This document shows, piece after piece, positions 3,239 to 64,000 of a stretch of 64,000 nt of DNA. The stretch comes from Mytilisepta virgata. Lineage: Eukaryota > Mollusca > Bivalvia > Mytilida > Mytilidae. The stretch lies in contig CM051521.1 in assembly GCA_028015205.1 (NCBI GenBank), forward strand, positions 99,052,513 through 99,116,512, written 5' to 3'. The first letter of the stretch is position 1; every line of letters starts with the position of its first letter. The position numbers were made by a program, and so were the translations under genes. Under the pieces are notes generated by a model that was not told where the DNA came from, searched no databases, and worked only from the letters and a program-made list of their open reading frames with translations.

Positions 3239-3993
3239 AGAACAAATATACCTAAGGAGCAATAAACAAAACGAAATCCATTCGACAGACAAACCCGGGA
3301 AGACAAATGAACAACCACAAGCACAACAAATAAATACAGGAAACTAAAAAGCAGTGAACAACACGAACAAATCGGTGGAGGCACATAAACGGTTACGACA
3401 GTGGGAACATGTCCAACATCATCTTAGATATTGGAACACTGTAATGGTCAATCAATTTGTGATGACGACCGTAAAATTTCCTAAGTGATGACATCAACTT
3501 ATCCCTGATAAAACCCTGGTTAAGAAGCATTTGTGACAGCAGTAATCTTCTTTGTCGAAAGTCAGGGTAACTCACGCATGCCCTTGAAAATCGGATAAGC
3601 TGAGAAACGTAGACGCCATATGCAGGCGATGCTTGTATATTGTTACTCAAGAAGGGAAAATTAACAATAGGAAAGTTGAAGTCATCACTTTTGTCATAAA
3701 GTTTTGTCTTCAAATGTCCCTCATAGTCTATTTTAAGAAACAAATCCAGATATGAAGCGGACTTTTGTGTATCTGTAGAATCCTTAATTTCAAGCTCACT
3801 GGGGTAGATAAGATGTAGAAAGTCTTGGAATTTGTCGTTATTTAACGACAACACATCATCTATATAACGAAAAGTGAAATTAAAGGATTGGGCTAGTTTC
3901 TTTTTGTTTTCACGTAGTAACGTTTGAATGAAGTCCGCTTCATATGAGTACAGAAACAGATCGGCGAGGAGAGCAGCAGAGTTGGTTCCCATT
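3239..3993 (-). pseudogene. Penelope-like reverse transcriptase fragment (family A), 5'-truncated
   Basis: Read on the minus strand, the open frame 3393-3993 encodes the C-terminal half of a Penelope-type reverse transcriptase. It has MGTNSAALLADLFLYSYE (motif B; other copies read NCAP), FRYIDDVLSLNN (motif C, catalytic YIDD), then KSASYLDLFL (the conserved LDL block after motif D). It ends KMMLDMFPLS and stop. The 3' untranslated tail follows down to 3239, where the terminus GGTATATTTGT lies; compared with the copy at 21997 it has lost about 105 bp between CACGAAC and ACAAATCGG. The 5' break falls inside motif B: beyond 3993 the sequence is unrelated, although the frame stays open to 4037. 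No GIY-YIG endonuclease follows the RT. The element cannot be autonomous. Confidence 0.85.
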
Positions 3994-4104
3994 GAATCGA
4001 TCAAAAAACCCCTACCGACAAAAAAAGAAAAAAACAACAGGAGCCAGATTTCGAACCTGTGTTTCTTATGGGGGCTGATTGTGTTAAAATATCATAAGGA
4101 TATA

Positions 4105-4614
4105 AAGTAAGTAAAGTCAAGAAATACCAAAGAGATATTCGAAGGTGAGAAAAATCGTAACAACTGAAAAACTCCGAAGAACAACGAAGGCCAGACCAAA
4201 ACAATACATGCACTACAATTAAAAACTAAAAACATATGAACAACATGGACCCCACCAAAAAACCGGGGGTAGACTCAGGTGCTCCGGGACAACCGCCATG
4301 CTCGCCATGTCAAATCCGTTATGAGGAAGGGATAATATCAATGGAACAGGTCCATTTTCATTTGGGAAACAGTTTTTTCATACGTTTCAACCAAGTCATG
4401 ATGACGCCCATAAAATTTTAATAAGGATGACTTCAGCTTAGAAGCAACGTACTCCTGTCTGAGCAACTTTTCTGTCAGGAGCCGGGCTCTATCCAGGAAG
4501 TCAATGTATATGTCACAAGCTCTGGAATAACGTATGAGTTTTGAATTTTATACTCTATACGCCGGCGCCTCTGGAATATTACCTCTCAAAAATGGGAAGT
4601 TGACGATTGGAAAG
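4105..4614 (-). pseudogene. Penelope-like element (family B), 3' part, left of the ribozyme array
   Basis: On the minus strand this holds the C-terminal RT coding remnant (around 4430-4614) and the 3' tail of a family B PLE. It is collinear with the less disturbed copy at 11427-12519. Shared phrases include AGTTGACGATTGGAAAGTC, GCCGGCGC, CAAATCCG and the tail near ACATGCACTACAATTAAAAA. The frame is broken. At 4614 the match stops in mid-codon and resumes at 6981, because the 378-bp repeat array has inserted at that point. Confidence 0.8.
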
Positions 4615-4664
4615 TCAAAATAACAATCCAAAGATAGTAATATTAGATATAGTAAATTTATACT

Positions 4665-4711
4665 ATGCTGTATACGACGCATTTCAAGGAGTTACCTCTC
4701 ATCAGCAGCAT
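4665..4711 (-). ncRNA. Hammerhead ribozyme motif, array copy 1
   Basis: Read 5'-3' on the minus strand. Stem I 5' arm is ATGCTG; core box CTGATGA; stem II GAGG-TAACT-CCTT; core box GAA; stem III ATGC-GTC-GTAT (A15.1-U16.1 closing pair, one G-U pair); H17 = A; stem I 3' arm CAGCAT. All conserved hammerhead core bases are present and the three stems pair. Predicted cleavage is between the bases complementary to 4671 and 4670, after A17. A17 obeys the NUH rule but is rarer than C. Stem III is short, as in animal type I hammerheads that work better as dimers. Confidence 0.87.
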
Positions 4712-5041
4712 TAAAACCGAAACATTTGGAAGACCAAAAACCAAACTTATATTAAACAAGAAGTACTCAACCAAAAATACCGAAATAGGAATCCAAATTT
4801 CAGCTAAGGAGATCTACCATGTGCAATACAAGGAATGAACCCTTAGTATTTCTATTATTTTTGAATTTTGCTAAATACTGGTAATTTCTGTAACAAATCA
4901 ATGAATAATCATGTCAGACAAGTCTGACGACTGGGTTTGCGAATACCCTCGGGGACAAGGGTCCACCAGCAGAGGCATCATCCCAGGAGTTTCAAAATAA
5001 CAATCCAAAGATAGTAATATTAGATATAGTAAATTTATACT

Positions 5042-5088
5042 ATGCTGTATACGACGCATTTCAAGGAATTACCTCTCATCAGCAGCAT
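5042..5088 (-). ncRNA. Hammerhead ribozyme motif, array copy 2
   Basis: Same fold as copy 1. One base differs in the stem II loop (TAATT in place of TAACT), outside the catalytic core. The distance from the cleavage site of copy 1 gives a 377-nt monomer. Confidence 0.87.
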
Positions 5089-5419
5089 TAAAACCGAAAC
5101 ATTTGGAAGACCAAAAACCAAACTTATATTAAACAAGAAGTACTCAACCAAAAATACCGAAATAGGAATCCAAATTTCAGCTAAGGAGATCTACCATGTG
5201 CAATACAAGGAATGAACCCTTAGTATTTCTATTATTTTTGAATTTTGCTAAATACTGGTAATTTCTGTAACAAATCAATGAATAATCATGTCAGACAAGT
5301 CTGACGACTGGGTTGGCGAATACCCTCGGGGACCCAGGGTCCACCAACAGAGGCATCATCCCAGGAGTTTCAAAATAACAATCCAAAGATAGTAATATTA
5401 GATATAGTAAATTTATACT

Positions 5420-5466
5420 ATGCTGTATACGACGCATTTCAAGGAGTTACCTCTCATCAGCAGCAT
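5420..5466 (-). ncRNA. Hammerhead ribozyme motif, array copy 3
   Basis: Identical to copy 1 in core boxes CTGATGA and GAA and in all three stems. The monomer to the previous copy is 378 nt. Confidence 0.87.
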
Positions 5467-5797
5467 TAAAACCGAAACATTTGGAAGACCAAAAACCAAA
5501 CTTATATTAAACAAGAAGTACTCAACCAAAAATACCGAAATAGGAATCCAAATTTCAGCTAAGGAGATCTACCATGTGCAATACAAGGAATGAACCCTTA
5601 GTATTTCTATTATTTTTGAATTTTGCTAAATACTGGTAATTTCTGTAACAAATCAATGAATAATCATGTCAGACAAGTCTGACGACTGGGTTGGCGAATA
5701 CCCTCGGGGACCCAGGGTCCACCAGCAGAGGCATCATCCCAGGAGTTTCAAAATAACAATCCAAAGATAGTAATATTAGATATAGTAAATTTATACT

Positions 5798-5844
5798 ATG
5801 CTGTATACGACGCATTTCAAGGAGTTACCTCTCATCAGCAGCAT
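5798..5844 (-). ncRNA. Hammerhead ribozyme motif, array copy 4
   Basis: Identical to copy 1 in core and stems, and 378 nt from the previous copy. Confidence 0.87.
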
Positions 5845-6175
5845 TAAAACCGAAACATTTGGAAGACCAAAAACCAAACTTATATTAAACAAGAAGTACT
5901 CAACCAAAAATACCGAAATAGGAATCCAAATTTCAGCTAAGGAGATCTACCATGTGCAATACAAGGAATGAACCCTTAGTATTTCTATTATTTTTGAATT
6001 TTGCTAAATACTGGTAATTTCTGTAACAAATCAATGAATAATCATGTCAGACAAGTCTGACGACTGGGTTGGCGAATACCCTCGGGGACCCAGGGTCCAC
6101 CAACAGAGGCATCATCCCAGGAGTTTCAAAATAACAATCCAAAGATAGTAATATTAGATATAGTAAATTTATACT

Positions 6176-6222
6176 ATGCTGTATACGACGCATTTCAAGG
6201 AGTTACCTCTCATCAGCAGCAT
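6176..6222 (-). ncRNA. Hammerhead ribozyme motif, array copy 5
   Basis: Identical to copy 1 in core and stems, and 378 nt from the previous copy. Confidence 0.87.
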
Positions 6223-6553
6223 TAAAACCGAAACATTTGGAAGACCAAAAACCAAACTTATATTAAACAAGAAGTACTCAACCAAAAATACCGAAATAGG
6301 AATCCAAATTTCAGCTAAGGAGATCTACCATGTGCAATACAAGGAATGAACCCTTAGTATTTCTATTATTTTTGAATTTTGCTAAATACTGGTAATTTCT
6401 GTAACAAATCAATGAATAATCATGTCAGACAAGTCTGACGACTGGGTTGGCGAATACCCTCGGGGACCCAGGGTCCACCAGCAGAGGCATCATCCCAGGA
6501 GTTTCAAAATAACAATCCAAAGATAGTAATATTAGATATAGTAAATTTATACT

Positions 6554-6600
6554 ATGCTGTATACGACGCATTTCAAGGAGTTACCTCTCATCAGCAGCAT
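6554..6600 (-). ncRNA. Hammerhead ribozyme motif, array copy 6
   Basis: Identical to copy 1 in core and stems, and 378 nt from the previous copy. Confidence 0.87.
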
Positions 6601-6931
6601 TAAAACCGAAACATTTGGAAGACCAAAAACCAAACTTATATTAAACAAGAAGTACTCAACCAAAAATACCGAAATAGGAATCCAAATTTCAGCTAAGGAG
6701 ATCTACCCTGTGCAATACAAGGAATGAACCCTTAGTATTTCTATTATTTTTGAATTTTGCTAAATACTGGTAATTTCTGTAACAAATCAATGAATAATCA
6801 TGTCAGACAAGTCTGACGACTGGGTTGGCGAATACCCTCGGGGACCCAGGGTCCACCAGCAGAGGCATCATCCCAGGAGTTTCAAAATAACAATCCAAAG
6901 ATAGTAATATTAGATATAGTAAATTTATACT

Positions 6932-6978
6932 ATGCTGTATACGACGCATTTCAAGGAGTTACCTCTCATCAGCAGCAT
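6932..6978 (-). ncRNA. Hammerhead ribozyme motif, array copy 7 (5' end of the array)
   Basis: Identical to copy 1 in core and stems. Its stem I 5' arm lies only two bases from the junction with PLE sequence at 6981, so the insertion begins almost exactly at a ribozyme. This is expected if the integrated template was a self-cleaved or circular RNA with the ribozyme at its end. Confidence 0.87.
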
Positions 6979-6980
6979 TA

Positions 6981-7420
6981 AAAGTCATCCCGTTTGTCGT
7001 AAAGTTTTGTATTCAACCTTCCTCTGGTGTCAATTTCGAGGCGAAGGTCAAGATAAGATGCAGACTTGGCAGTGTCTATGGTATCCTTAATTTCGAGATC
7101 ATTGGGATAGATGAGATGTAAGTAATTCCCAAAACGTGAATTGTTGAGTGATAAGACATCATCTATGTTTTTCCTTAAAAAGCCTGTCAAGGAAGTCTGC
7201 CTCATGTGAGTAAAGGCACAAGTCGGCCTGTAGTGGCGCACAATTAGTACCCATAGGAATTCCAATTGTCTGTTGGAAAACACGTCCACCAAATTGAACA
7301 AACATGTTGTCGATCAAAAATTAAATCCTCAAGACAATTTTGTCCTCTGTTTATTTTTGTTAGATTTAGAGTGGTTTTTAACAAAGTATGATTTATCTCT
7401 ACAAATGACAAGTAAATGAT
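6981..7420 (-). pseudogene. Penelope-like RT pseudogene (family B), part right of the ribozyme array
   Basis: This continues the RT copy left off at 4614. On the minus strand it encodes IDDVLSLNNSRF (motif C region), EIKDTIDTAKSASYLDLRLE and NTKLYDKRDDF. About 41 bp between motif B and motif C have been lost relative to 11427-12519, removing the FRY before IDD and shifting the frame. Upstream the frame reads MLL-type fragments of motif B in another phase (the bases for ATTGGCATTCC and ATGGGTAC are recognisable around 7240-7275). The match fades near 7420. The copy was probably inactive before or after the array inserted; the order cannot be read from the sequence alone. Confidence 0.8.
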
Positions 7421-7984: not shown

Positions 7985-8130
7985 ATGATAGTTCCCTTCA
8001 AGGAGTTATTGACATATTTCGGATTTAATGCTGCTGATGGGAGGAAACCCCTTGAAATGCGTCGTATACAGCATAGTATAAATTTACTATATCTAATATT
8101 AGTATCTTTGGATTGTTATTTTGTTATACA
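7985..8130 (+). repeat. Solo copy of the 378-bp retrozyme unit, inverted
   Basis: From about 7999 to 8127 this matches the reverse complement of the ribozyme-bearing part of the 378-bp unit, through GTATACAGCATAGTATAAAT and on to GGATTGTTATTTTG. It extends past the ribozyme on its 5' side (TTCGGATTTAATGCTG), beyond where the big array starts. It is diverged from the array copies and is not tandem, so it is an older single insertion. Confidence 0.8.
8028..8074 (+). ncRNA. Degenerate hammerhead ribozyme motif (solo unit)
   Basis: Stem I ATGCTG/CAGCAT, stem II GAGG/CCTT, GAA, stem III ATGC/GTAT and A17 are all preserved. The core box reads CTGATGG instead of CTGATGA, so invariant A9 has become G. 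From hammerhead biochemistry this should strongly reduce or abolish cleavage. Stem I and stem III are conserved while the core is broken, as expected for a dead copy. Confidence 0.7.
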
Positions 8131-11426: not shown

Positions 11427-12519
11427 TAATATGTAAAGTCAAGAAATACAAAAGGGATATTCGAAGGAGAGAAAAATCGTTACAACTGACAAACTCCGGA
11501 GAACAACGAAGACAAGACCAAAACAATACATGCACTACAATTAAAAACTAAAAACGTATGAACAACATGGACCCCACCAAAAAACCGGGGGTAGACTCAG
11601 GTGATCCGGAAGAGTAAGCAGTCTCTGCTTCCTGCAGGACACCCGCCATGATGCTCATGTCAAATCCGGTATGAGGAAGGGATAATATCAATGGAACAGG
11701 TCCATTTTCATTTGGGAAACGGTTTTTTCATACCTGTCAACCAAGTCATGATGACGCCCATAAAACTTTAATAAGGATGACTTCAGCTTAGGAGTAACGT
11801 ACCCCTGTCAGAGCAACTTTTCTGTCAGGAGCCGGGCTCTGTCCAGGAAGTCAATGTATATGTCACAAGCGCTGGAATAACGTATGAGTTGTGAAATATA
11901 TACTCCATACGCCGGCGCTTCTGGAATATTGCCGCTCAAAAATGGAAAGTTGACGATTGGAAAGTCAAAGTCATCCCGTTTGTCGTAAAGTTTTGTATTC
12001 AACCTTCCTCTGGTGTCAATTTCGAGGTGAAGGTCAAGATAAGATGCAGACTTGGCAGTGTCTGTGGTATCTTTAATTTCGAGCTCATTGGGATAGATGA
12101 GATGTAAGAAATTCTCAAAACGTGAATTGTTGAGTGATAAAACATCATCTATGTAGCGGAAGCTGAAATTAAAGGTACGGGCTAACTTCTTTTGTTTTTC
12201 CTTAAGAAGCCCGTCAAGGAAGTCTCCCTCATATGAGTAAAGGAACAAGTCGGCCACTAGTCGCGCACAATTAGTACCCATAGGAATGCCAATTGTCTGT
12301 TGGAAAACACGTCCACCAAATTGAACAAATATGTTGTCGATCAAAAATTCAATCATCAGGATTCGTCCTCTGTATATCTCTACCAATGACAAGGTATGTG
12401 ATCTGTTGTTGCCATTTTTATTTTGAAAGCATCGATGGATTAGATCTTTCAACTTCTCCTTTAGTTGTGAATGAGGAATGGTAGTATAGAGGGTAGAGAA
12501 ATCAAATGTTTTTATGCTG
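11427..12519 (-). mobile_element. Penelope-like element (family B), longest RT in the window, 5'-truncated
   Basis: On the minus strand, an open frame encodes a PLE reverse transcriptase from motif A onwards: IKTFDFSTLYTTIPHSQL (motif A), QTIGIPMGTNCARLVADLFL (motif B), FRYIDDVLSLNN (motif C) and KSASYLDLHLE (motif D/E), then SGNIPEAPAYGVYISQLIRY. The frame stops near 11808, short of the KFYGRHHELI end seen in family A, because of a frameshift. The upstream part of the open frame (12530-12692) is LINE sequence read in the wrong phase, not PLE. TTAAAG occurs at both edges (11421-11426 and 12520-12525), consistent with a short target duplication. The 5' region of a full PLE (N-terminal RT, pLTR) is missing. 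No GIY-YIG domain follows. The 3' tail shares the GGAGCAxx-like block of the other families. Confidence 0.87.
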
Positions 12520-12525
12520 TTAAAG

Positions 12526-13433
12526 ACTGAAATCTCTATAATTATCAATTTTATTAACATCTTTACTTTTATAAACAGGTACAATAATTCCAACACACCA
12601 GCCTTTGGGCATGTATCCAAAAACATAAATCGCATAAAATACCTTGCGTAAACAATGGTAATAAAATATCTAACTATGCATGAAATATTCATTCAACAAA
12701 TTATCAATACCAGGCGACTATTTGTGCTTTAAGTTACTGATCACCTTTCGTATTTCATCCAAAGTAATAGGTAAACCTAACTGTTCATAAACACATTCCT
12801 GATTATCGTTTCCAAATTAATGTGTTCTTCATCCGTTTCAGATACTAAACTTTTGAAATGTTTGTAAATGTTTCCAAAATTCAAATTACAGTCAACACTT
12901 TTAGGAATCTACAGGAAAGCTTTAAAAAATCTTTTTTGGATTGCGTTTCCGCCAAAAGTTCATTTGGTTCCGCTCGAGTTCTTCGTATCAACGTTTAGGA
13001 CTATGTTCATAATTTTCGTGAGGCCTCTTTGAGTCGATTAAACATTGCCTGTTAAAATTATTTGTTGAATATGCGAAGTTTTGGTTGATAGGTAAAATAG
13101 AGTTCTTTGCAGCTTACGTCGAACCATGGCTTATAAATTGTTGCTCTGATGCCTGTGCACTTCTAGCGTTCACTAAGATTATACGATAGTAGTTTTCACA
13201 GAACGGTTTTATATCAAGCAGACTACAAAATTTGTGAACCGTGGAATCAATGCTATTCCAAGAATACTCCTCTAATTGTTCCATTATTTCGTTCATACTA
13301 TCTAAATTAGAAAGCATACAATTTTTAATAACGTCAACTTTTTCTTTATTGAATGGGTAGCTACTATTAGAACTTTCAGAGTCTGTCCCTCCCTCAATTT
13401 CCATACCAGAAGTATCAAAAGTCACACAGATTC
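12526..13433 (-). pseudogene. LINE ORF2 pseudogene: linker and N-terminal RT
   Basis: On the minus strand the first ~100 codons (13114-13433) form an open frame with no close motif, ending in frame-shifted KPWFDVSCKELYFTYQ, the 'PW…C' linker found between endonuclease and RT in jockey/CR1-type LINEs. Then come LERNQMNFWRKRNPKK-like residues, LPITLDEIRKVISNLK, SPGIDNLLNEYF and YMPKGWCVGIIVPVYKSKD, ending NYRDFSL: the classic start of the RT domain (KSPGxD, GxxPxxW, NYRxISL). Frameshifts and stops disable it. The endonuclease domain is not visible above 13433. Family is uncertain between jockey, CR1 and related clades. Confidence 0.8.
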
Positions 13434-21996: not shown

Positions 21997-22477
21997 GGAC
22001 AAATATACCTAAGGATCAATAAAAAAAAACGTAATCCATTGGACAGACAAACCCGGGAAGACAAATGAACAACCACAAGCACAGCAAATAAACAAATAAA
22101 ACTAAAAAACAATGAACAACACGAACTCCTATAAAAACCAGGAGTGAACCCAGGTGCTCCGGAAGGGTAAGCAGTTCCTGCTCCGTATACGGCACCCTTC
22201 GTGAAGTTCAACAAAGTCAATCCTTGGGAAGTCACAAATCGGTGGAGGCACATGAAAGGTTACGACAGTGGGAACAGGTCCAACATCATCTTAGATATTG
22301 GAACACTGTAATGGTCAATCAATTCGTGATGACGACGTAAAATTTCCTAAGTGGTGACATCAACTTATCCCTGATAAAACCCTGGTTAAGAAGCTTCTGT
22401 GACAGCAGTAATCCTCTTTGTCGAAAGTCAGGGTAACTCACGCATGCCCTTGAAAATCGGATAAGCTGAGAAACGTA
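21997..22477 (-). pseudogene. Penelope-like element 3' fragment (family A)
   Basis: On the minus strand it holds the last ~60 codons of the family A RT (YVSQLIRFSRACVSYPDF, LLLSQKLLNQGFIRDKLMS, LRKFY then a frameshift) and the full 3' untranslated tail, ending GGTATATTTGTCC. The tail is nearly identical to those at 24759-25020 and 59190-59457, which suggests young age or constraint. The break at 22477 falls between AAACGTA and TATGCAGTGG, where gag-like LINE sequence begins. Confidence 0.88.
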
Positions 22478-23328
22478 TATGCAGTGGAAGGTTAAACGTT
22501 TACTTTGTCTGCGTATGTTGTGGAAGATGTCAATTTTTCGAGTTTCTTTATAACTAATTCTATTTTCAGCTTTTATTTTTTGAATTTTAAATTCTTTTTT
22601 ATAATATTCACAAATTCTAGAATTTGCCAAATGATCTAAACCACAATTTGCACATTTAATTTGGCCTTCACATTCAAAGCTGGAATGGCCCTCTGCAGAA
22701 CATTTGACACATCTTTCCGTACCTCTACAAGAACTCCTACCATGTCCAAACTTCTGACATTTAAAACAACGACTAGGGTTCGGTATGTAAGTGTCAATTC
22801 TTATTCTGTAGGGTCCAAGGTAAATGTGACTGGGTACAACTGAAAGGTAAAAAGTAAGAATGTAAGTATTTAATTTAATGATATTGCTATCAGATTTTTT
22901 TGTAAACCTTTTGATTTTCGCAGCGTATTGTGATTTAGGTTCTTCAAAGATTTCATCATCAGAAAGTTCAGCCAAATCACGATCAGGGTCTCTGATTATT
23001 CCTTGACACGAATTTAATGTCCTGTGAGGAGTAACGGAGATCTGGATATTGCCAATTGTAATCAAAGAGAGCAGATTTTTTTACTGTTGTTGCCTGAAAC
23101 ATTCGATCCTTCCATTTTTCATTTTAGAAACTTTTTAAACGGTGTCTTGTATTGACTTTTGGAGAACGAAAGGTGAAATTTTGGTTAATAGTTTTTCCGG
23201 ATCTACACTTGTCAAGACTTATTATTTGGAAAATGTATTTGTAGATTTAACGGTGTGGTTCTCATCATCACTTGATTCTAATTTCGTTTAGAGCATGTTG
23301 GTGTTTGGGGGTTTTGTAGAGAAGCCAT
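22478..23328 (-). pseudogene. LINE ORF1 (jockey-like gag) with three CCHC zinc knuckles, truncated
   Basis: On the minus strand the likely start is ATG at 23328 (MASLQNPQTPTCSKR). Frameshifts and two stops follow (SSDDENHTVKSTNTFSK; PEKLLTKISPFVLQ; VSKMKNGRIE). From 23065 the frame is open: ITIGNIQISVTPHRTLNSCQ, IIRDPDRDLAELSDDEI, then zinc knuckles CFKCQKFGHGRSSC, CVKCSAEGHSSFEC and CANCGLDHLANSRIC. This layout is that of the nucleic-acid-binding gag of jockey-type LINEs, which coats element RNA. At 22478 the frame runs, by chance, into PLE sequence, making an artificial fusion. No ORF2 follows. Not functional as it stands. Confidence 0.85.
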
Positions 23329-24758: not shown

Positions 24759-25790
24759 AGGACAAATATACCTAAGGAGCAATAAAAAAACGTAATCCAT
24801 TGGACGGACAAACCGGGGAAGACAAATGAACAACCACAAGCACAACAAATAAACACAGAAAATTAAAAAAACAATAAACAACACGAACTCCTATAAAAAC
24901 CAGGAGTGAACCAAGGTGCTCCGGAAGGGTAAGCAGTTCCTGCTCCGTATACGGCACCCGTCGTGAAGTTCAACAAAGTCAATCCGGGGGAAGTCAAATC
25001 AATGGAGGCACATGAAAGGTTACGACATTGGGAACAGGTCCAACATCATCTTAGATATTGGAACACTGTAATGGTCAATCAATTCGTGATGACGACCGTA
25101 AAATTTCCTAAGTGATGACATCAACTTATTCCTGCTAAAACCCTGGTTAAGAAGCTTCTGTGACAGCACTAATCCTCTTTGTCGAAAGTCAGGGTAACTC
25201 ACGCATGCCCTTGAAAATCGGATAAGCTGAGAAACGTAGACGCCATATGTAGGCGATGCTGGTATATTGCTACTCAAGAAGGGAAAATTAACAATAGGAA
25301 AGTTGAAGTCATCACGTTTGTCATAGAGTTTTGTCTTCAAATGCCCCTCCTAGTCTATTTCAAGAAACAAATCCAAATATGAAGCGGACTTTGGTGTATC
25401 TGTAGTATCCTTAATTTCAAGCTCACTGGGGTAGATAAGATGTAGAAAGTCTTGAAATTTGTCGTTATTTAACAACAATACATCATCTATATCACAAAAA
25501 GTGAAATTAAAGGATTGGGCTAGTTTCTTTTTGTTTTCACGTAGTAACCCTTGAATGAAGTCCGCTTCATATGAGTACAGAAACAGATCGGCGAGGAGAG
25601 AAGCACATTTGGTTCCCATTGGAATGCCGATTGTTTGTTGAAAAATTAGACCGCCAAATTCAACGAATATGTTGTCTATGAGAAAATCTAACATGTTTGT
25701 AATTTCATCTTCAGAATACTTTTTGTCACAATCAAAGTGGTTCTTCACGAAAGAAGCCTTTTCTCTATTATCTTTAATTCAGTGGAGAGG
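24759..25790 (-). pseudogene. Penelope-like RT pseudogene (family A), nearly full C-terminal RT plus 3' tail
   Basis: On the minus strand it starts KDNREKASFVKNHFDCDKKY, then MLDFLIDNIFVEFGG, FQQTIGIPMGTKCASLLADL (motif B), then FCDIDDVLLLNN where the catalytic YIDD has become DIDD. EIKDTTDTPKSASYLDLFLE follows, then a TAG stop at 25352-25350 replacing the Tyr codon of family members. The rest reads YDKRDDFNFPIVNFPFL … RKFYGRHHELIDHYSVPI and LDLFPMS stop. The 3' tail is intact to 24759. The paralogous block at about 2140 (GCAATAGAAAC) shows the empty site. It is dead by one nonsense codon and an active-site change. Confidence 0.9.
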
Positions 25791-26299: not shown

Positions 26300-27415
26300 C
26301 TTTGTCAATAGACATATTTTTAAAAGAAAACCATCTAACGACCATTACTGATAAGTCTTGTTCCAACTGACTGAGTGGTTTCAGACAATAAGATTTTAAA
26401 ATGGATTTTTCAATAGGGTCCTATATTAAACTAAATTCGGCTGTGGCGGCCATCTTGGTTGACAATCCGGGTGATCAGACACATGTCTGAAAGGAGACCT
26501 CCTAAGGACCATTGCTGCCAAGTCTGGTTCCAATTGGTAAAGTGATTTCAGACAAGAAGATTTTTCAATGAATTGTCCATAGGGTCCTATTGTAAAACTA
26601 AGTTCGCTTGTGGCGGCCATTTTTGTTGCTAGTCCAGTTCTTCGGACATATTTCTGAAAGAGGATCTCCTAAAGACCATTGCTGCCAAGTCTGGTTCGAA
26701 TTTGTCAAGTGGTTTCAGACAAGTAGATTTTCCATAGGGTCCTATGTTAACTAAGATCGGTTGTGGCGGCCGTCTTGGTTGACAGTCCGGGTCTTTGGAT
26801 ATAATTCTGAAAGATGACCATCAGAAGACCATTGCTGCCAAGTCTGGTTCCAATTTGTCAAGTGGTTTCAGACAAGAAGATTTTTCAATGAATTTTCCCA
26901 TAAGGCCCTATGTTCGGCTGTTGCAACCATCTTGGTTAAGAGTCCTGGTCATCGGACATAATTTTGAAAGAGAACCTCCTAAGGACTATTACGGCCAAGT
27001 TTGGTTCCAATTGGCCTTATAGTTTCATAGAAGATTTTTTTTAATTCATGCCCCCCTTTTTCTATTTTTAGTAACAGCCGCCATGCCGGTTGGAAATCGG
27101 GGATGCCAGACATAATTTTGGAAGGGGGCCATCCAAGGACCATTCCACCAAAGTTTGGTCCCAATTGGCACAGTGGGTTCAGAGTAGAAGATCTTTAAAG
27201 GAAAGTTTAAGCCGGACACCATCTTTAAAGGTCAAAAACTCCTATAAGGGGTCAATCAATGATTTTTTTGCTGTAAATGCTTTAGTTTTTGAGATACAAG
27301 ACAAAAACTGCAGTTTACCCCTATGGTCTATTTTTAGCCATGTCGGCCATGGTGGTTGGCAGGCGGAGTCATCGGACACATTTTTTTAAACTTTGGGTCA
27401 GGTGTGCTAAAAAAT
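26300..27415 (+). mobile_element. TIR element made of ~150-167-bp internal repeats (copy 2)
   Basis: The module GTGGCGGCCATCTTGGTTGA, then CAGTCCGGGTCATCGGACA-type, then GACCATTGCTGCCAAGTCTG, then TTTCAGACAAGAAGATTTTT recurs at ~26443, 26610, 26763, 26910, 27075 and 27340. It ends TCAGGTGTGCTAAAAA near 27412, the same edge as copies 1 and 3. The left edge is diverged and the GCTCACCTG start is not seen. Long open frames over it arise only because the repeat is read through in one phase. Confidence 0.75.
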
Positions 27416-40104: not shown

Positions 40105-41275
40105 CTGGAGGCTCCAAAGAGCCTGTATCGCTCACCTGGATTCAATTTGCCAATCAACAGCCATAAAAGCACCTAAGAAACAAACGTCTGTATTATTGGA
40201 CATAATTCTGAAAGAGGACAATCTATTAACCATGGCTGCCAAGTCTGGTTCCAATTGGCTGAGTGCTTTCAGACAAGAAGCTGTTTTAAATGAATTTCCC
40301 CAAAGAGTCCTATGTTAAACTAATTTCGACTGCGGTGGCCATCTTTGTTAACTGTCCGGGTCATCTGACAAAATTATGAAAGAGGACCACCAAAGGGCCA
40401 TTTCTGCCAAGTTTGGTTCCAATTGGCTTATTTTAGACCAGAAGATTTTTTAATAAATTTTCCCATAGGGTCCTTTGTTAAACTAAGTTCGGTTGTGGTG
40501 GCCATCTTGTTTGACTTTCTGGGTCATCGGACGCATTTCTGAAAGACGAACATTTAAGGACAATTTCTGCCAAGTCTGCTTCCAACTGGCTCTGTAGTTT
40601 TAGACAAGAAAATGTTTTAAATGAATTTCCCAATAGGGTCCTATGTTCGGCTGTGGCGGCCATCTTGGTAGACAGTCTGGGTCATCTGGACCATCTAAAG
40701 ACCGTTGCTGCCAATTCTTGTTCCAACTGGCTCTGTGGTTTCAGACAATAAGATTTTCAAATGAATTTCCCAATAGGGTCTTATATTAAGTTGGACTGTG
40801 GCAGCCATCTTTTGAAAGAGACCATCTAAGGACCATTGCTGCTAAGTTTGGTTCCAATTGGCTCAGTACTTTCAGACAAGAAAATGTTTGAATTGAATTT
40901 CCATTGGGGTCCTATATTAAACTAAGTTCTGTTGTGGCGGCTATCTTAGTTGATCGTACGGGTCATCGGACACAATTCTGAAAGAGGACTATCTAAGGAC
41001 ATTGCTGCCAAATTTTGTTCCAAGTGGCCATGTAGTTACATAGGAGAAGATTTTTTAAATTCACCCCTTTTTCTATTTTTAGTCATAGCAGTCATGTTGG
41101 TTGAAAGTCGGGGATCCCGGGCACAATTTTGGAAGGAGGCCACCCAAGGACCATTTGGTCCCAAATGGCTGGGCGGTTTCAGAGAAAATTGTTTTTGTTA
41201 TTGTGGACGGATGGACGACGGACGCAAAGTGATGGCAAAAGCTCACATGGCCGTTTAGGTCAGATCAGCTAAAAA
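40105..41275 (+). mobile_element. TIR element made of ~150-170-bp internal repeats (copy 3)
   Basis: It starts with GGAGGCTCCAAAGAGCCTG, a small hairpin, then TATCGCTCACCTGG. It ends GTGATGGCAAAAGCTCACAT and GTCAGATCAGCTAAAAAG at 41275. The interior repeats the same GTGGCGGCCATCTT / GGACCATTGCTGCCAAGT / TTTCAGACAAGAAGAT modules as copy 2, followed by GGACGACGGACGC as in copy 1. It is non-coding; open frames over it are repeat artefacts. Confidence 0.8.
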
Positions 41276-42149: not shown

Positions 42150-45100
42150 CTGGAGTAAAATTCAATCCCTTATATAATAAATCGAAGAAATTCGCTGTCA
42201 AAGCGAACAGTATTTCAATACTTCAGTTCATTCTGTAAACAACAAAATTGATAACAGGAAAGGTCGACAATAACAAACCAATCAATCATAGCAACCCAAC
42301 GGACAAAATGCTGTACAAAAAAATAACATAAAAGAGTACATGTACCTATATCCGCCGAAACCCAATACCTTACATCAGAAAACGTGAAATGTTTACATAT
42401 AACTTATTGGACTGACTTTTTTCTACATAATAAACTTTGTTTGAAGGATTGCACCTGAGCCATTCTAACATTTGACTGCGACAATATGGTCAGTCAAGAA
42501 TCTGACTTGAAATATCGTTAAGTTAGGTTTAAATGTATACAGGCTTATTTTTAACAAAAAGCTGCTAAGGAGCATACTGTGGTATTAGTGATACGGATAT
42601 TGGCAAATAATCATTGAATCATATTTAATAATAATGTACTTTGAACGTTATTATATCCTGTTAATTCTAATTAAATCTGATGAAACATTTTTAATGAAGT
42701 AAGGGTCGTTGAATGATAGCACATCTTTTCAGCCTCTGATATTGTTGACGAAGTGGAATTTTAAATTTTAGCAAAAACATAAAGAAACAACGCCTAGTAA
42801 AATACTTTCATTTCCGGTTTTATTTCTTCCTGTTTTATAAGAAAACAAAAAATTTAGATATGAAACTTTCATCTCAGCTGTATCGTTCAATACAAAAAAA
42901 AACAAAAAAACAAAAAAACAACAACAAAAAAACAAAAACAAAAGGCCAAACCAATTACTCCAAAGTTTTTCGAGCAAACCGAATTGAAAAAACGACAATA
43001 AAAATATAAATAAAGACAGAGTTTAAATATGCTTGATGGATCTACTCCTTCTTTGAAAAATGTTATCTATTTTTTTTCAAGAATTTGCCACAAATTTAAT
43101 GAGAAATTCTATATGTATAAGTAGTCACTTATTCGTTTGTATAAAGGAACAAAGCAAAACTAAAAACTTCTTTAACAACAGCTTGTTTTTCTCTGAAGAT
43201 TAAACTTAAATTTATCAAAAAAAGGTCTTTTGTAGTGCAATAATTGGTGTTAACCAGTTGTTTTGGAAACGACCATTGTGTGGGAATCCTCATTTTTTAA
43301 TTTATTTTCAGGTGCTAAGAATGTACCTCACATTGAAAAATACAAAACATATTCGCAATTTAGGGAATTTTTGCACAGATAAAATCTATTTATAGATAGT
43401 GTTGTTAGTATACCTAGTTAGGGGGGACAGGGGGATATTATTTTCTCAATTCCCTTAAAAATTTGCCATTTTCCCCCTATTTCTTAAATTTTTTGCCCCT
43501 TCTTCCCAATTCCCTAAATTTTTTGCTCAATTTTACCCAATTCCTAAAATTCTTCTGCTCAATTTTCCCAACTTCCCAAAAGCGTGTCACCCCCACCAGT
43601 TATACAAATAATGTTTTTCATGTACGCATTTTCTCGTACTGTTGTTGAAGTGTTCTCATCAACAGAAATAATATTATTTTGGTAATGTTTCTGTCAAAGC
43701 CATATTATTTTTGCTTGTAAATTAATGATATATGTTCGTATACCAATGCAAATGTCATATAAAACAATGTTTTTATCTTATGTTAAAAACTGATTATGTC
43801 TACTTACAATATTAAGGTTTCGGGGTCTGTTACACATTAAACCTTCGTTTATCCTCAAATATATTTACTATTTTAAACAATTCTTAGTGTTATTAAATGC
43901 TTGAATGACACGGATACTGGCGCTTATCAATATTTTAAGTTAAAACATAATTATATCCTGTGAACCATGATCAGAAATTTCCTTATTTTTTTCTCAGAAG
44001 TACTATATTTAAGTCGATATATAAGTTTCTTTTCCTAAAACATTAAAAAAATTTCAGTCTTACGAATTTTATTGATATTCATTTAATTCATGATATGGAA
44101 ATACTAAATATTTTGAAAACTTATAATTATCTCCCTTGTGTATATCTTTTGTCTTTAACCTTTCGGTTTTGTCGGCATTTAAGTCTGCTCTTCAGCATCT
44201 TGGGTTTTTTCGGCTTTCAGCATTTTTGGCCTGTATAAGCACAACTAATTAATCATAGATCGACGAAATATTCATACTTTCTGAATCAAGACAGGTCACT
44301 AACATGTTCATCACAATGATCTCCCAAAGAATTTTGTATTTTCCCAGACTTAAACTATGGTTCTATATTTGTGTGAAGTGTATGTATTTAATCGCCAATG
44401 TGCCCAACGCAACCTTTGGTGTTGGTCTGAATTTATATGGCATAAAAAAAAAATAAATCAGTCCTTGCACATGGGTTAAAGTTTTGCTTTTTGGATGTTG
44501 TAATATTAATACATCTCAGGTAATATACCCAAATGCTAACGGAATTTGTACCTGATTGACAGGTTTTTCCCTGCAGACAATAACTGCAAAGTATGGCCTT
44601 ATTCTAGATTTATTGATTATAATTAAATAGTTCTATATGGTTGATCTATAATGATGACAGACTGAGATTTTAATAATTTTAGAAATTTAATTTCATTCCT
44701 CGAAATGTCCGTAAATATTCGAAATATTCCAGAGTATAGTGCAATTACTGAAATTCCACTAAAATGCAAAATTCATATTTAGAAAATTATCCAGTGTTTG
44801 GATTTTTGACATAAATGATGCATCTTAACTTTTACATGGCCGCAAGTCCTACTGAGGCGGAGACGGCAGCTGCCTCCTCCAAATTTCGAGTGAAACATCA
44901 AATAAATAAAATAAATAAAAAAATATAGAAAAGAATAAGAAAAAACAAGTTTAATTTAAGTGTATTGACCACAGTCACTTCAAAACACATCGTAATATCA
45001 AATTATGACAATGCCTAGCTAACGAGAATAATAGAAAAGGATAAGATTTTATGTTCGAGTAAAAAAAATGAATGGACAAAAAGCACAAGCCCTAAAACCA

Positions 45101-58170: not shown

Positions 58171-58499
58171 TTGTAACGTATGGATTCAACAGACATGTTT
58201 CTTGAGTGAAAACATTTATATGGAATTCCAGTAAACTTTTCTGATCTGGAATATATGAGCTACAAGATCGACTGTACTAATAAACTAAAGATTTCCAAAG
58301 TTCTCGTTGAACATGAAATCATAAGGGCAGTGACAGTATATCAAAGATTTCAATTAATTAATATACTGGATTTGTGAAAAATTCGTTAATTTGTCGTTTT
58401 CTAATATGAATATAAATTTTAACATTACTTATTTCCAGTTGTTGCGGTGAAGATTCAATTAGGTTTAAGACAATGTCGCACGAATTTGTTTTAGTCATT

Positions 58500-59457
58500 C
58501 TTCTTATTTCGTGAAGAACCACTCTGATTCTGACAAAAAGTATTCTGAAGATGAAATTACAAACATGTTAGATTTTCTCATAGACAACATATTCGTTGAA
58601 TTTGGCGGTCTAATTTTTCAACAAACAATCGGCATTCCAATGGGAACCAACTGTGCTCCTCTCCTCGCCGATCTGTTTCTGTACTCATATGAAGCGGACT
58701 TCATTCAAGGGTTACTACATGAAAACAAAAAGAAACTAGCCCAATCCTTTAATTTCACTTTTCGTTATATAGATGATGTGTTGTCGTTGAATAACGACAA
58801 ATTCCAAGACTTTCTACATCTTATCTACCCCAGTGAGCTTGAAATTAAGGATACTACAGATACACCAAAGTCCGCTTCATATTTGGATTTATTTCTTGAA
58901 ATAGACTATGAGGGACGTTTGAAGACAAAACTTTATGACAAACGTGATGACTTCAACTTTCCTATTGTTAATTTTCCCTTCTTGAGTAGCAATATACCAG
59001 CATCGCCTGCATATGGCGTCTACGTTTCTCAGCTTATCCGATTTTCAAGGGCATGCGTGAGTTACCCTGACTTTCGACAAAGAGGATTACTGTTGTCACA
59101 AAAGCTTCTTAACCAGGGTTTTATCAGGGATAAGTTGATGTCATCACTTAAGAAATTTTACGGTCATCATGGACATGTTCCCACTGTCGTAACCTTTCAT
59201 GTGACCCCTACGATTTGTGACTTACACCGGATTGACCTTGTTGAACTTCACGACGGGTGCCGTATACGGAGCAGGAACTGCTTACCCTTCCGGAGCACCT
59301 GGGTTCACTCCTGGTTTTTATAGGAGTTCGTGTTGTTCATTGTTTTTAGTTTTCTGTGTTTATTTGTTGTGCTTGTGGTTGTTCGTTTGTCTTCCCGGGT
59401 TTGTCTGTCCAATGGATTACGTTTTTTTTATTGCTCCTTAGGTATATTTGTCCTTTT
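58500..59457 (+). pseudogene. Penelope-like RT (family A), longest intact frame, with 3' tail
   Basis: An uninterrupted frame from 58511 encodes FVKNHSDSDKKYSEDEI (start of the preserved part), DFLIDNIFVEFGG, QQTIGIPMGTNCAPLLADLF (motif B), FRYIDDVLSLNN (motif C with both catalytic Asp), KSASYLDLFLEIDYEGR, FPFLSSNIPASPAYGVYVSQ and LLNQGFIRDKLMSSLKKFYG. A ~57-bp deletion then removes the normal C-terminus (HHELI…FPLS) and the frame runs on into the 3' tail until a stop at 59323. There is no N-terminal RT, no motif A and no GIY-YIG endonuclease, so it is not autonomous. The 3' tail ends GGTATATTTGTCC at 59457. Near-identity to the copies at 3239, 21997 and 24759 suggests recent activity of the family. 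Confidence 0.9.
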
Positions 59458-62813: not shown

Positions 62814-63292
62814 AGCCGTCGCCAACGACGTTGCTATACAATGGTCATCGCGTAATCATATAAAAACATTATCCCATGTATTTGTATTTTCTCGTTAAAA
62901 TTTCTGAATACATGGAATATTTCAATGTAATAAGCAGAATAACTAATCTTGAAATTCGAATACCAAAGATCTACAACTCGTGACCGAAAAACACTAATAA
63001 TTCACTCGTGCGCTACGATGACTTAATAGTAAATAAATAGAAAGGAACATTAAAAACATTCTCGAGGAGATTCAGAACACTGTGGTGTGCAGAAAGAGAA
63101 GCATTGTGCAATACAAAATGCCTAAAGACATACTGAATTTTTGTGTTTCATATGAATCTTATTCATAACCTGGGATACCTGGTAAATATTTGACATAGGT
63201 GTTTTCAGTGCCGATTTAGTTACTGTATTCATGTCCTGCTGTAACAGTATACAATCCATGTATGTAATAAAATTTTTGATACCAATTTTGAT

Positions 63293-63338
63293 GCACAAGA
63301 TGTGCACATTTCGTCGATTTACGACTCATCAGTTGTGC
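63293..63338 (-). ncRNA. Hammerhead ribozyme, type I, canonical core
   Basis: Read 5'-3' on the minus strand: stem I arm GCACAA; CTGATGA; stem II GTCG-TAAAT-CGAC; GAA; stem III ATGTG/CACAT (a perfect palindrome, minimal loop); C17; stem I arm TTGTGC. Every invariant core base is present, stems I to III pair perfectly and the site is AUC, one of the best cleavage triplets. Predicted cleavage is between the complements of 63299 and 63298. Very short stem III is characteristic of animal retrozyme hammerheads, which usually cleave best as dimers. Confidence 0.92.
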
Positions 63339-63610
63339 TCAAGGCCTAAAAAGTTGAAAACCAAAACAATTCAAAAGGTTCAAGAGCAAGTTCAAAAATA
63401 CCAAAGGGGTAAAGCCAAAACCATCTAAGGACAGAGCTATGCACTTAGTTTTCACAAATTGTACAATTTTGTAGCATTGAATTTAAAGTTCCAATTTCGG
63501 GCTAGTATCGAAATATTAGCAATTGAGCTGGGGATACCCTCGTGGAATTGGAGTCCACCAGCAGTGGAATTAATTCAGTGGTTCAAAAAAAATCTGATAC
63601 CAATTTTGAT

Positions 63611-63656
63611 GCAAAAAATGTGCACATTTCGTCGATTTAAGACTCACAGTTGTGCT
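63611..63656 (-). ncRNA. Decayed hammerhead ribozyme (array 2, unit 2)
   Basis: Stem II, GAA and stem III (ATGTGCACAT) are kept, but CTGATGA has lost one base (CTGTGA), C17 is T, and the 3' arm of stem I reads TTTTGC and pairs poorly. Cleavage is not expected. Confidence 0.75.
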
Positions 63657-63941
63657 CAAGGCCTAAAATTTTTAAAACCAAAACAACAATTCAAAAGGCT
63701 GAAGAACAAATTAAAAAAAAAAACAAAATGACCAAAAGGGTTTAAGCCAAAACCATCTAAGGGCCCAGCTATGCACGAGGCAGATACTCCTAAGTTTTCA
63801 CAAATTTTACAATTTTGTAACAGTGAATTTTAAGTATCAATTTCGGATTAGTATATAAATATTAGCAACTAAGCTGGATATAACCTCGGGGACTTAGAGT
63901 CCAACAGCAGTGGCATCGACTCAGTGGTTAAAATAAAATTC

Positions 63942-63975
63942 TGATACCAAAATGATGCACAAGATGTGCATATTC
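63942..63975 (-). ncRNA. Truncated hammerhead ribozyme remnant (array 2, unit 3)
   Basis: GAA, a changed stem III (ATATGCACAT), C17 and the stem I arm TTGTGC remain on the minus strand. The sequence diverges just before the stem II half, at about 63974, so CTGATGA and stem II are absent. Confidence 0.65.
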
Positions 63976-64000
63976 CGTAGAAAATTGTATTCATGTGTAG

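Follow-up and report, generated by a model that had tools for sequence, protein, structure and literature searches.

A tandem array of hammerhead ribozymes in Mytilisepta virgata bears the features of a recent retrozyme that may be functional

We analysed a window of 64,000 nucleotides from Mytilisepta virgata (GenBank assembly GCA_028015205.1, contig CM051521.1, positions 99,052,513 to 99,116,512 of the forward strand), in which a tandem array of near-identical units, referred to here as family A, interrupts an old reverse transcriptase (RT) relic. The window also holds a solo copy of family A and an older array of a related family, B. The two arrays are:

4615..6983, minus strand (RNA sense = minus strand): family A, a probable tandem retrozyme array; six monomers of 377-378 bp plus partial ends, from TRF, monomer cutting and edges
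63266..64000, minus strand: family B, an older array with a spacing of 318/346 bp, cut short by the end of the window; one hammerhead intact (63332), two degenerate ones upstream

TRF reported a period of 378 with 6.3 copies and 99% matches for family A, which confirms the tandem 378-bp array of the original prediction and moves its right edge from 6980 to 6983. Cutting at the predicted cleavage sites yielded the six expected monomers, five of 378 nt and one of 377 nt, which together span 4671 to 6937. Near-identity of the copies was likewise borne out, with pairwise identities among the six monomers of 98.7-100% (mean 99.4%). The unit has a GC content of 36%, stop-free runs in the array reach at most 60 codons, and no ORF of 120 aa was found inside it. 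Six alignment columns vary among the monomers, five of them through a change in a single unit, and each unit diverges from a common template by ~0.3%. Because this divergence is low we infer that the array is young, although gene conversion between units could mimic youth.

Each repeat carries a type I hammerhead on the minus strand, composed of stem I (AUGCUG/CAGCAU, 6 bp), CUGAUGA, stem II (GAGG/CCUU, 4 bp), GAA, stem III (AUGC/GUAU, 4 bp) and A17, with the cut at AUA^C. The complete set is present in 7/7 copies, all of which fit our hammerhead descriptor, in agreement with the seven minus-strand ribozymes with A17 that had been predicted:

6932..6978, minus strand: hammerhead copy 1 (RNA-5' most), by descriptor
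6554..6600, minus strand: hammerhead copy 2, by descriptor
6176..6222, minus strand: hammerhead copy 3, by descriptor
5798..5844, minus strand: hammerhead copy 4, by descriptor
5420..5466, minus strand: hammerhead copy 5, by descriptor
5042..5088, minus strand: hammerhead copy 6, by descriptor; one C->T change in loop II
4665..4711, minus strand: hammerhead copy 7 (RNA-3' most), by descriptor; AUA^C cut between 4671 and 4670

The descriptor matched the window at these seven places and at one more, 63332 on the minus strand in family B, and had no match on either strand of 40 Markov-simulated 64-kb windows. A looser version matched four times among 30,000 dinucleotide-shuffled units, both strands included, and not at all on the opposite strand of the family-A unit itself. 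A small circular-RNA design with a hammerhead might also point to an infectious circular RNA, viroid-like or delta-like, that was copied into DNA. However, the ribozyme descriptor fits one strand only, the 378-nt circle is not predicted to be unusually stable (fold z -1.5, 65% paired) and related families of different ages lie within the same 64 kb, which leaves this origin extremely improbable.

No Rfam family reached its gathering score anywhere in the window, and no Rfam hammerhead family matched at E<=10 in 4400-7200. When one of the seven family-A copies was searched alone, the best match within the clan was RF02275 HH9 (14.4 bits, E 0.36, cut-off 52). At the gathering threshold of RF00163 Hammerhead_1 family A was without a match, and the family-B hammerhead at 63332 scored 29.8 bits (E 5e-6) against a cut-off of 34. 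The Infernal search against Rfam that had been proposed as a check, with a match in every unit, therefore failed for family A, but as the family-B hammerhead, a more canonical relative, likewise falls below the RF00163 cut-off, we regard Rfam as a blunt yes/no test that is uninformative for this family.

The catalytic fold of family A is not the minimum-energy fold (-7.1 vs -12.6 kcal/mol), nor is that of family B (-7.5 vs -10.3 kcal/mol). By nearest-neighbour folding, the catalytic fold would account for ~5e-5 of the ensemble of the bare family-A core, 5-7e-6 with 82-367 nt of context and ~5e-6 for copy 6 with its loop change; the shares are 2e-3 for family B and 1e-3 for the mutated solo copy. 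These low shares suggest that the family-A ribozyme may be slow or misfold. Together with the missing Rfam match, a catalytic fold that is disfavoured in silico would also suit an inactive relic, hammerhead-shaped and non-cleaving, that spread only as a DNA repeat. We consider this very unlikely, given that 7/7 cores are intact in a low-divergence array, that the older family B retains an intact core and its pairing with different stem sequences, and that a mussel relative cleaved, albeit slowly, at ~0.1 per min, as reported in passages of PMC7229834, which also make an exception of some mussel circles where freely folding ribozymes are concerned.

In family B, the ribozyme stems are GCACAA/UUGUGC, GUCG/CGAC and AUGU/ACAU, which differ in sequence from those of family A with the pairing kept; its stem III can have no more than 3 bp if room is kept for a real loop, and the site at the cut is AUC. 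A decayed B-like retrozyme copy, 72-76% identical to B in pieces, lies at 44099-44289 on the plus strand. Two IMG/VR contigs, L001 (11494-11519) and L002 (179-204), both matches of one pattern in a viral-contig scan, were considered as relatives and rejected, their cores being hammerhead-like and their flanks unrelated by eye; three further patterns in viral-contig scans retrieved no relatives.

We then compared the array with known systems. Family A has two of the properties by which metazoan non-LTR retrozymes are recognized, namely non-coding tandem repeats of 150-450 bp with GC below 50% and a type I hammerhead in each repeat (7/7 copies fitting the descriptor). The group is further characterized by the lack of LTR, PBS and PPT, by self-cleavage and circular RNA in tissue, and by target site duplications (TSDs) that, if there are any, exceed 4 bp. 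Its closest fit is to the retrozymes of Mytilus galloprovincialis (Cervera & de la Pena 2020, PMC7229834), which, in the passages concerned, form 350-390 bp repeats, carry ~5000 hammerheads that fall into two similar families, and give rise to abundant circular RNA. The likeness extends to the type I hammerhead, the tandem arrangement and the low GC, and also, by description, to two related ribozyme families that lack archetypal loop contacts. The retrozyme identity put forward originally is thus upheld by the near-identical tandem units and the seven minus-strand hammerheads with A17, whereas the suggestion that the family may be new is weakened, since mussel retrozymes of ~350-390 bp with two type I hammerhead families are already in print and the fit to them means that this kind of element is not new. 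Plant LTR retrozymes (PMC4918200, in part) resemble the array in being non-autonomous, in their ribozyme-bounded circular RNA and in their solo forms; they differ in having type III hammerheads, ~330-bp LTRs (Jatropha), PBS/PPT and 4-bp TSDs. The Sm-alpha / W elements of schistosomes are, as described in parts of PMC8490949, likewise hammerhead-bearing, satellite-like and partly dispersed repeats, but are SINE-like, and repeats of schistosomes are reported to include a tRNA part. The literature consulted also included passages of PMC7761336, PMC6155905 and PMC10294476.

The array is flanked on either side by half of an old RT relic, both halves being on one strand, and the window also holds an uninterrupted paralogue of this relic:

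4201..4614, minus strand: remaining part of the split RT relic, on the RNA-3' side (by blastn against the paralogue, 11.4-12.4 kb)
6984..7354, minus strand: upstream piece of the split RT relic, on the RNA-5' side (by blastn against the paralogue)
11831..12090, minus strand: paralogous uninterrupted RT copy, the empty target; GGAAAGTCAAAGTCATCC on the plus strand

The joined flanks are 85.8% identical to the copy at 11.5-12.4 kb over 860 columns (blastn). The target in the paralogue reads GATTGG-AAAGTCAAAGTCATCC, and the array splits it at AAA with no loss; unit and target share TCAAA at the left junction and AAA at the right. The duplication at the site can be read as 0-3 bp, if the target was like the paralogue, or as 7 bp (AAAGTCA), if the host copy was already without 6 bp. 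A 7-bp TSD of AAAGTCA at both ends appeared convincing at first and was rejected, as the paralogue has AAAGTCA twice, overlapping, in its uninterrupted target. Of eight ORFs of at least 120 aa, three cover the site and 3/3 of these keep the two codons of the uninterrupted target; we therefore prefer the shorter reading, by which 0-3 bp were probably duplicated when the array inserted.

The RT relic may be Penelope-like. Its best match among solved structures was telomerase RT (E 8e-4, with the copy at 58.5-59.3 kb as query), which fits Penelope-like RTs, and the link of the relic to Penelope is weak. A 12-sequence profile returned nothing at E<=0.01, the AlphaFold model was unusable (pLDDT 41.6), so that structure gave no placement, and Pfam searches of four ORFs gave RVT_1 below the cut-off in one and nothing in the other three. 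Copies or fragments of this RT family are present at 3393-4091 (-), 11808-12692 (-), 22319-23080 (-), 25350-25778 (-) and 58469-59323 (+), and the family is abundant, with 7786 of 8000 scored candidates at E<=0.001. The ORF at 22319-23080 (-) also has, by eye, a CCHC zinc-knuckle-like spacing; it is fused in frame to a tail of the RT family and had no Pfam match at E<=0.01.

We also read the edges of the insertion, and a second family-A copy gave a further pair:

4615..4623, minus strand: TTATTTT tract forming the RNA-3' edge (unit position 48-56), the putative start of reverse transcription
8014..8123, plus strand: solo 110-bp family-A copy, unit 324-378 + 1-55; 94.5% identical, core mutated to CTGATGG

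In RNA sense, the family-A array runs from unit position 333 to 56. It begins and finishes close to a ribozyme, so that the earlier statement that it starts and ends at ribozymes is right as an approximation, but the outer edges lie 46 nt 5' of the first and 56 nt 3' of the last cleavage point. The RNA-3' edge falls 55-56 nt after the cut in both family-A copies, and that of family B, TTTTATT, is the homologous tract in the A-B alignment. An RNA-3' edge at the same U-tract is therefore seen in 3/4 in-window insertions (the array, the solo copy and family B), these three being the readable ones; the fourth, the decayed B-like copy at 44.1-44.3 kb, is too worn for its edge to be read by eye. Under a uniform start this agreement has a probability of ~1.7e-4, with tolerances of 1 and 3 nt chosen by us, and of about 1 in 16 if A-rich primers seek any U-run, T>=4 runs being present four times in the unit. 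Since the cleavage junction lies within the solo copy, the template of this copy was uncut, multimeric or circular, unless the solo copy is a collapsed array. It has no clear TSD. Its left flank contains a 12-nt inverted piece of the ribozyme, TAACTCCTTGAA, which perhaps records a snap-back during copying.

The array may alternatively have grown as a satellite, one or two inserted units being expanded later, or collapsed in the case of the solo copy, by unequal exchange. At column 79 the six units read C,T,C,T,C,C, a variant common to non-neighbouring units that a single monomer circle does not predict, which we count against such a circle, and that suggests a duplicated dimer or a dimeric template. 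Moreover, collapse of the array by six units would give the solo copy, apart from 9 nt more or less at one edge, and gene conversion could also keep units alike. However, the single-unit changes in 5/6 variable columns are what simultaneous synthesis of all units would predict, and the ~0.3% divergence per unit from a common template leaves little time for expansion, so that satellite growth appears unlikely.

A different template is also conceivable, in the form of a linear multimeric transcript, in place of a circle, that escaped ribozyme cutting and whose 5' end set the RNA-5' edge of insertions. The RNA-5' edges of the array and the solo copy are only 9 nt apart (unit 333 and 324; ~5% by chance), the family-A ribozyme is predicted by folding to be weak, and the Penelope-like element (PLE) of PMC11167929, in the experiments excerpted, takes uncut RNA in vitro and still inserts when its ribozyme is mutated. 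Against this, the transcript would have to run uncut through six ribozymes, circular forms dominate in mussels according to passages of PMC7229834, and microhomology can explain the RNA-5' edge of the array, where a TTTT run meets the AAA of the target. We regard a linear template as rather unlikely.

Just 3' of the putative start, each unit contains a conserved block that is common to families A and B and to an outside contig:

5677..5746, minus strand: conserved ~60-nt block, unit-3 copy (one per unit), just 3' of the putative start; common to family B and L003

The blocks of A and B agree in 46/59 columns (78%), the U-tract included. A pattern made from the block matched one record among genome contigs, from which the window's own genome or very near ones were perhaps left out. 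This contig, L003, is filed under a Bathymodiolus septemdierum symbiont and is presumably host DNA, likely an assembly contamination. At 4551-6307 it carries the block as the repeat of a 74-bp, 23.5-copy array, preceded by a ribozyme-like remnant (4497) that has no Rfam hammerhead match at E<=10. Eight blocks, two of the six from the A array, two from B and four of the 12 listed L003 copies, are predicted to fold to a common 15-pair stem-loop. Covariation did not support the stem-loop (term +0.39, with 1/15 pairs changed on both sides). A further outer stem, CUGGG/CCCAG in family A, was recognized by eye only.

The arrangement of cut, ~55 nt, start and ~60-nt block is similar to that of the PLE of PMC11167929, a likeness that we take as a lead. 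The passages concerned place the hammerhead cut of this purified element at +26 and have reverse transcription begin internally, between +111 and +118, the RNA being required to +172; by subtraction, it starts 85-92 nt after the cut and needs ~54-61 nt of RNA past the start. Like PLEs with pLTR hammerheads (PAc), family A is tandem, with a hammerhead near the element end, an insertion edge downstream of the cut and an AT-rich target. In contrast to those elements, as far as PMC11167929 describes them in these parts, its stem III is complete and its array has no ORF where PLEs encode RT/EN; an ORF with a telomerase-like RT and GIY-YIG, the hallmark of Penelope-like elements, is absent from the array. 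The starts also differ, in that PAc uses two adjacent sites within an AC-rich stem-loop, neither of them with homology to the DNA that is cut, and the edge of family A is a U-tract that shares 5 nt with its target. As for the enzyme that moves mussel retrozymes, passages of PMC7229834 leave the helper open, acting from circle or linear RNA, with PLEs as a strong candidate and LINEs also named. Nothing on edges offset from the cut appears in the parts of that article at hand, and the words 'boundar', 'solo' and 'rolling' are absent from its main text. Fixed retrozyme edges were not mentioned in the titles or abstract openings of the literature searched, a range that leaves room for prior publication.

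We conclude that the array is probably a recent insertion of a non-autonomous, mussel-type metazoan non-LTR retrozyme, the term mussel-type being based on the block in L003 and on the literature. At the level of sequence, near-identical units, seven type I hammerheads, all canonical and all on one strand, and a precise insertion into the old RT relic are established. In the mechanism we propose, minus-strand multimeric transcripts would cut themselves at AUA^C into 378-nt monomers, which a host ligase would close to circles. A partner reverse transcriptase, for which a Penelope-like enzyme is the best candidate, could then be primed by nicked target DNA and always start at one U-tract, 55-56 nt past the cut, to which the adjoining ~60-nt block probably guides it. 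Some six turns of the circle, or copying along a multimer that had stayed uncut, would yield a tandem array with edges offset from the ribozyme cuts. We count in favour the one RNA-3' edge in 3/4 in-window insertions, the empty-site paralogue and the block common to A, B and L003. Counted against are the lack of an Rfam gathering match, the disfavoured catalytic fold, the block without covariation and the weak link between relic and Penelope; a fixed start, in particular, is weakened by the small number of edges, three, and by the reported PLE start (PMC11167929, in part), which is AC-rich and without homology where the edge of family A is a U-tract with 5 nt shared.

The empty-site paralogue of the array, the edges lying off the cleavage sites, the common RNA-3' U-tract and the shared ~60-nt block may be new. 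More tentatively, a ~60-nt recognition element on the circular RNA of mussel retrozymes might set the start of a Penelope-like RT at one fixed U-tract, giving a constant RNA-3' edge ~55 nt past the cut; we consider this possible, on the doubtful side. If true, it would name the machinery that moves retrozymes and imply an internal-start design like that of the PLE in vitro. With an empty-site paralogue and two other insertions sharing the RNA-3' edge, the question of the mobilising enzyme can be reduced to counting edges in mussel genomes, and it is this edge anatomy, a hint on how the RNA is copied back into DNA, that we see as the main value of the array.

Elsewhere in the window, TRF also found tandem repeats of ~153-167 bp with a similar consensus, CTGCCAAGTCTGGTTCCAATTGG, at 26311-27014 and 40236-40647.
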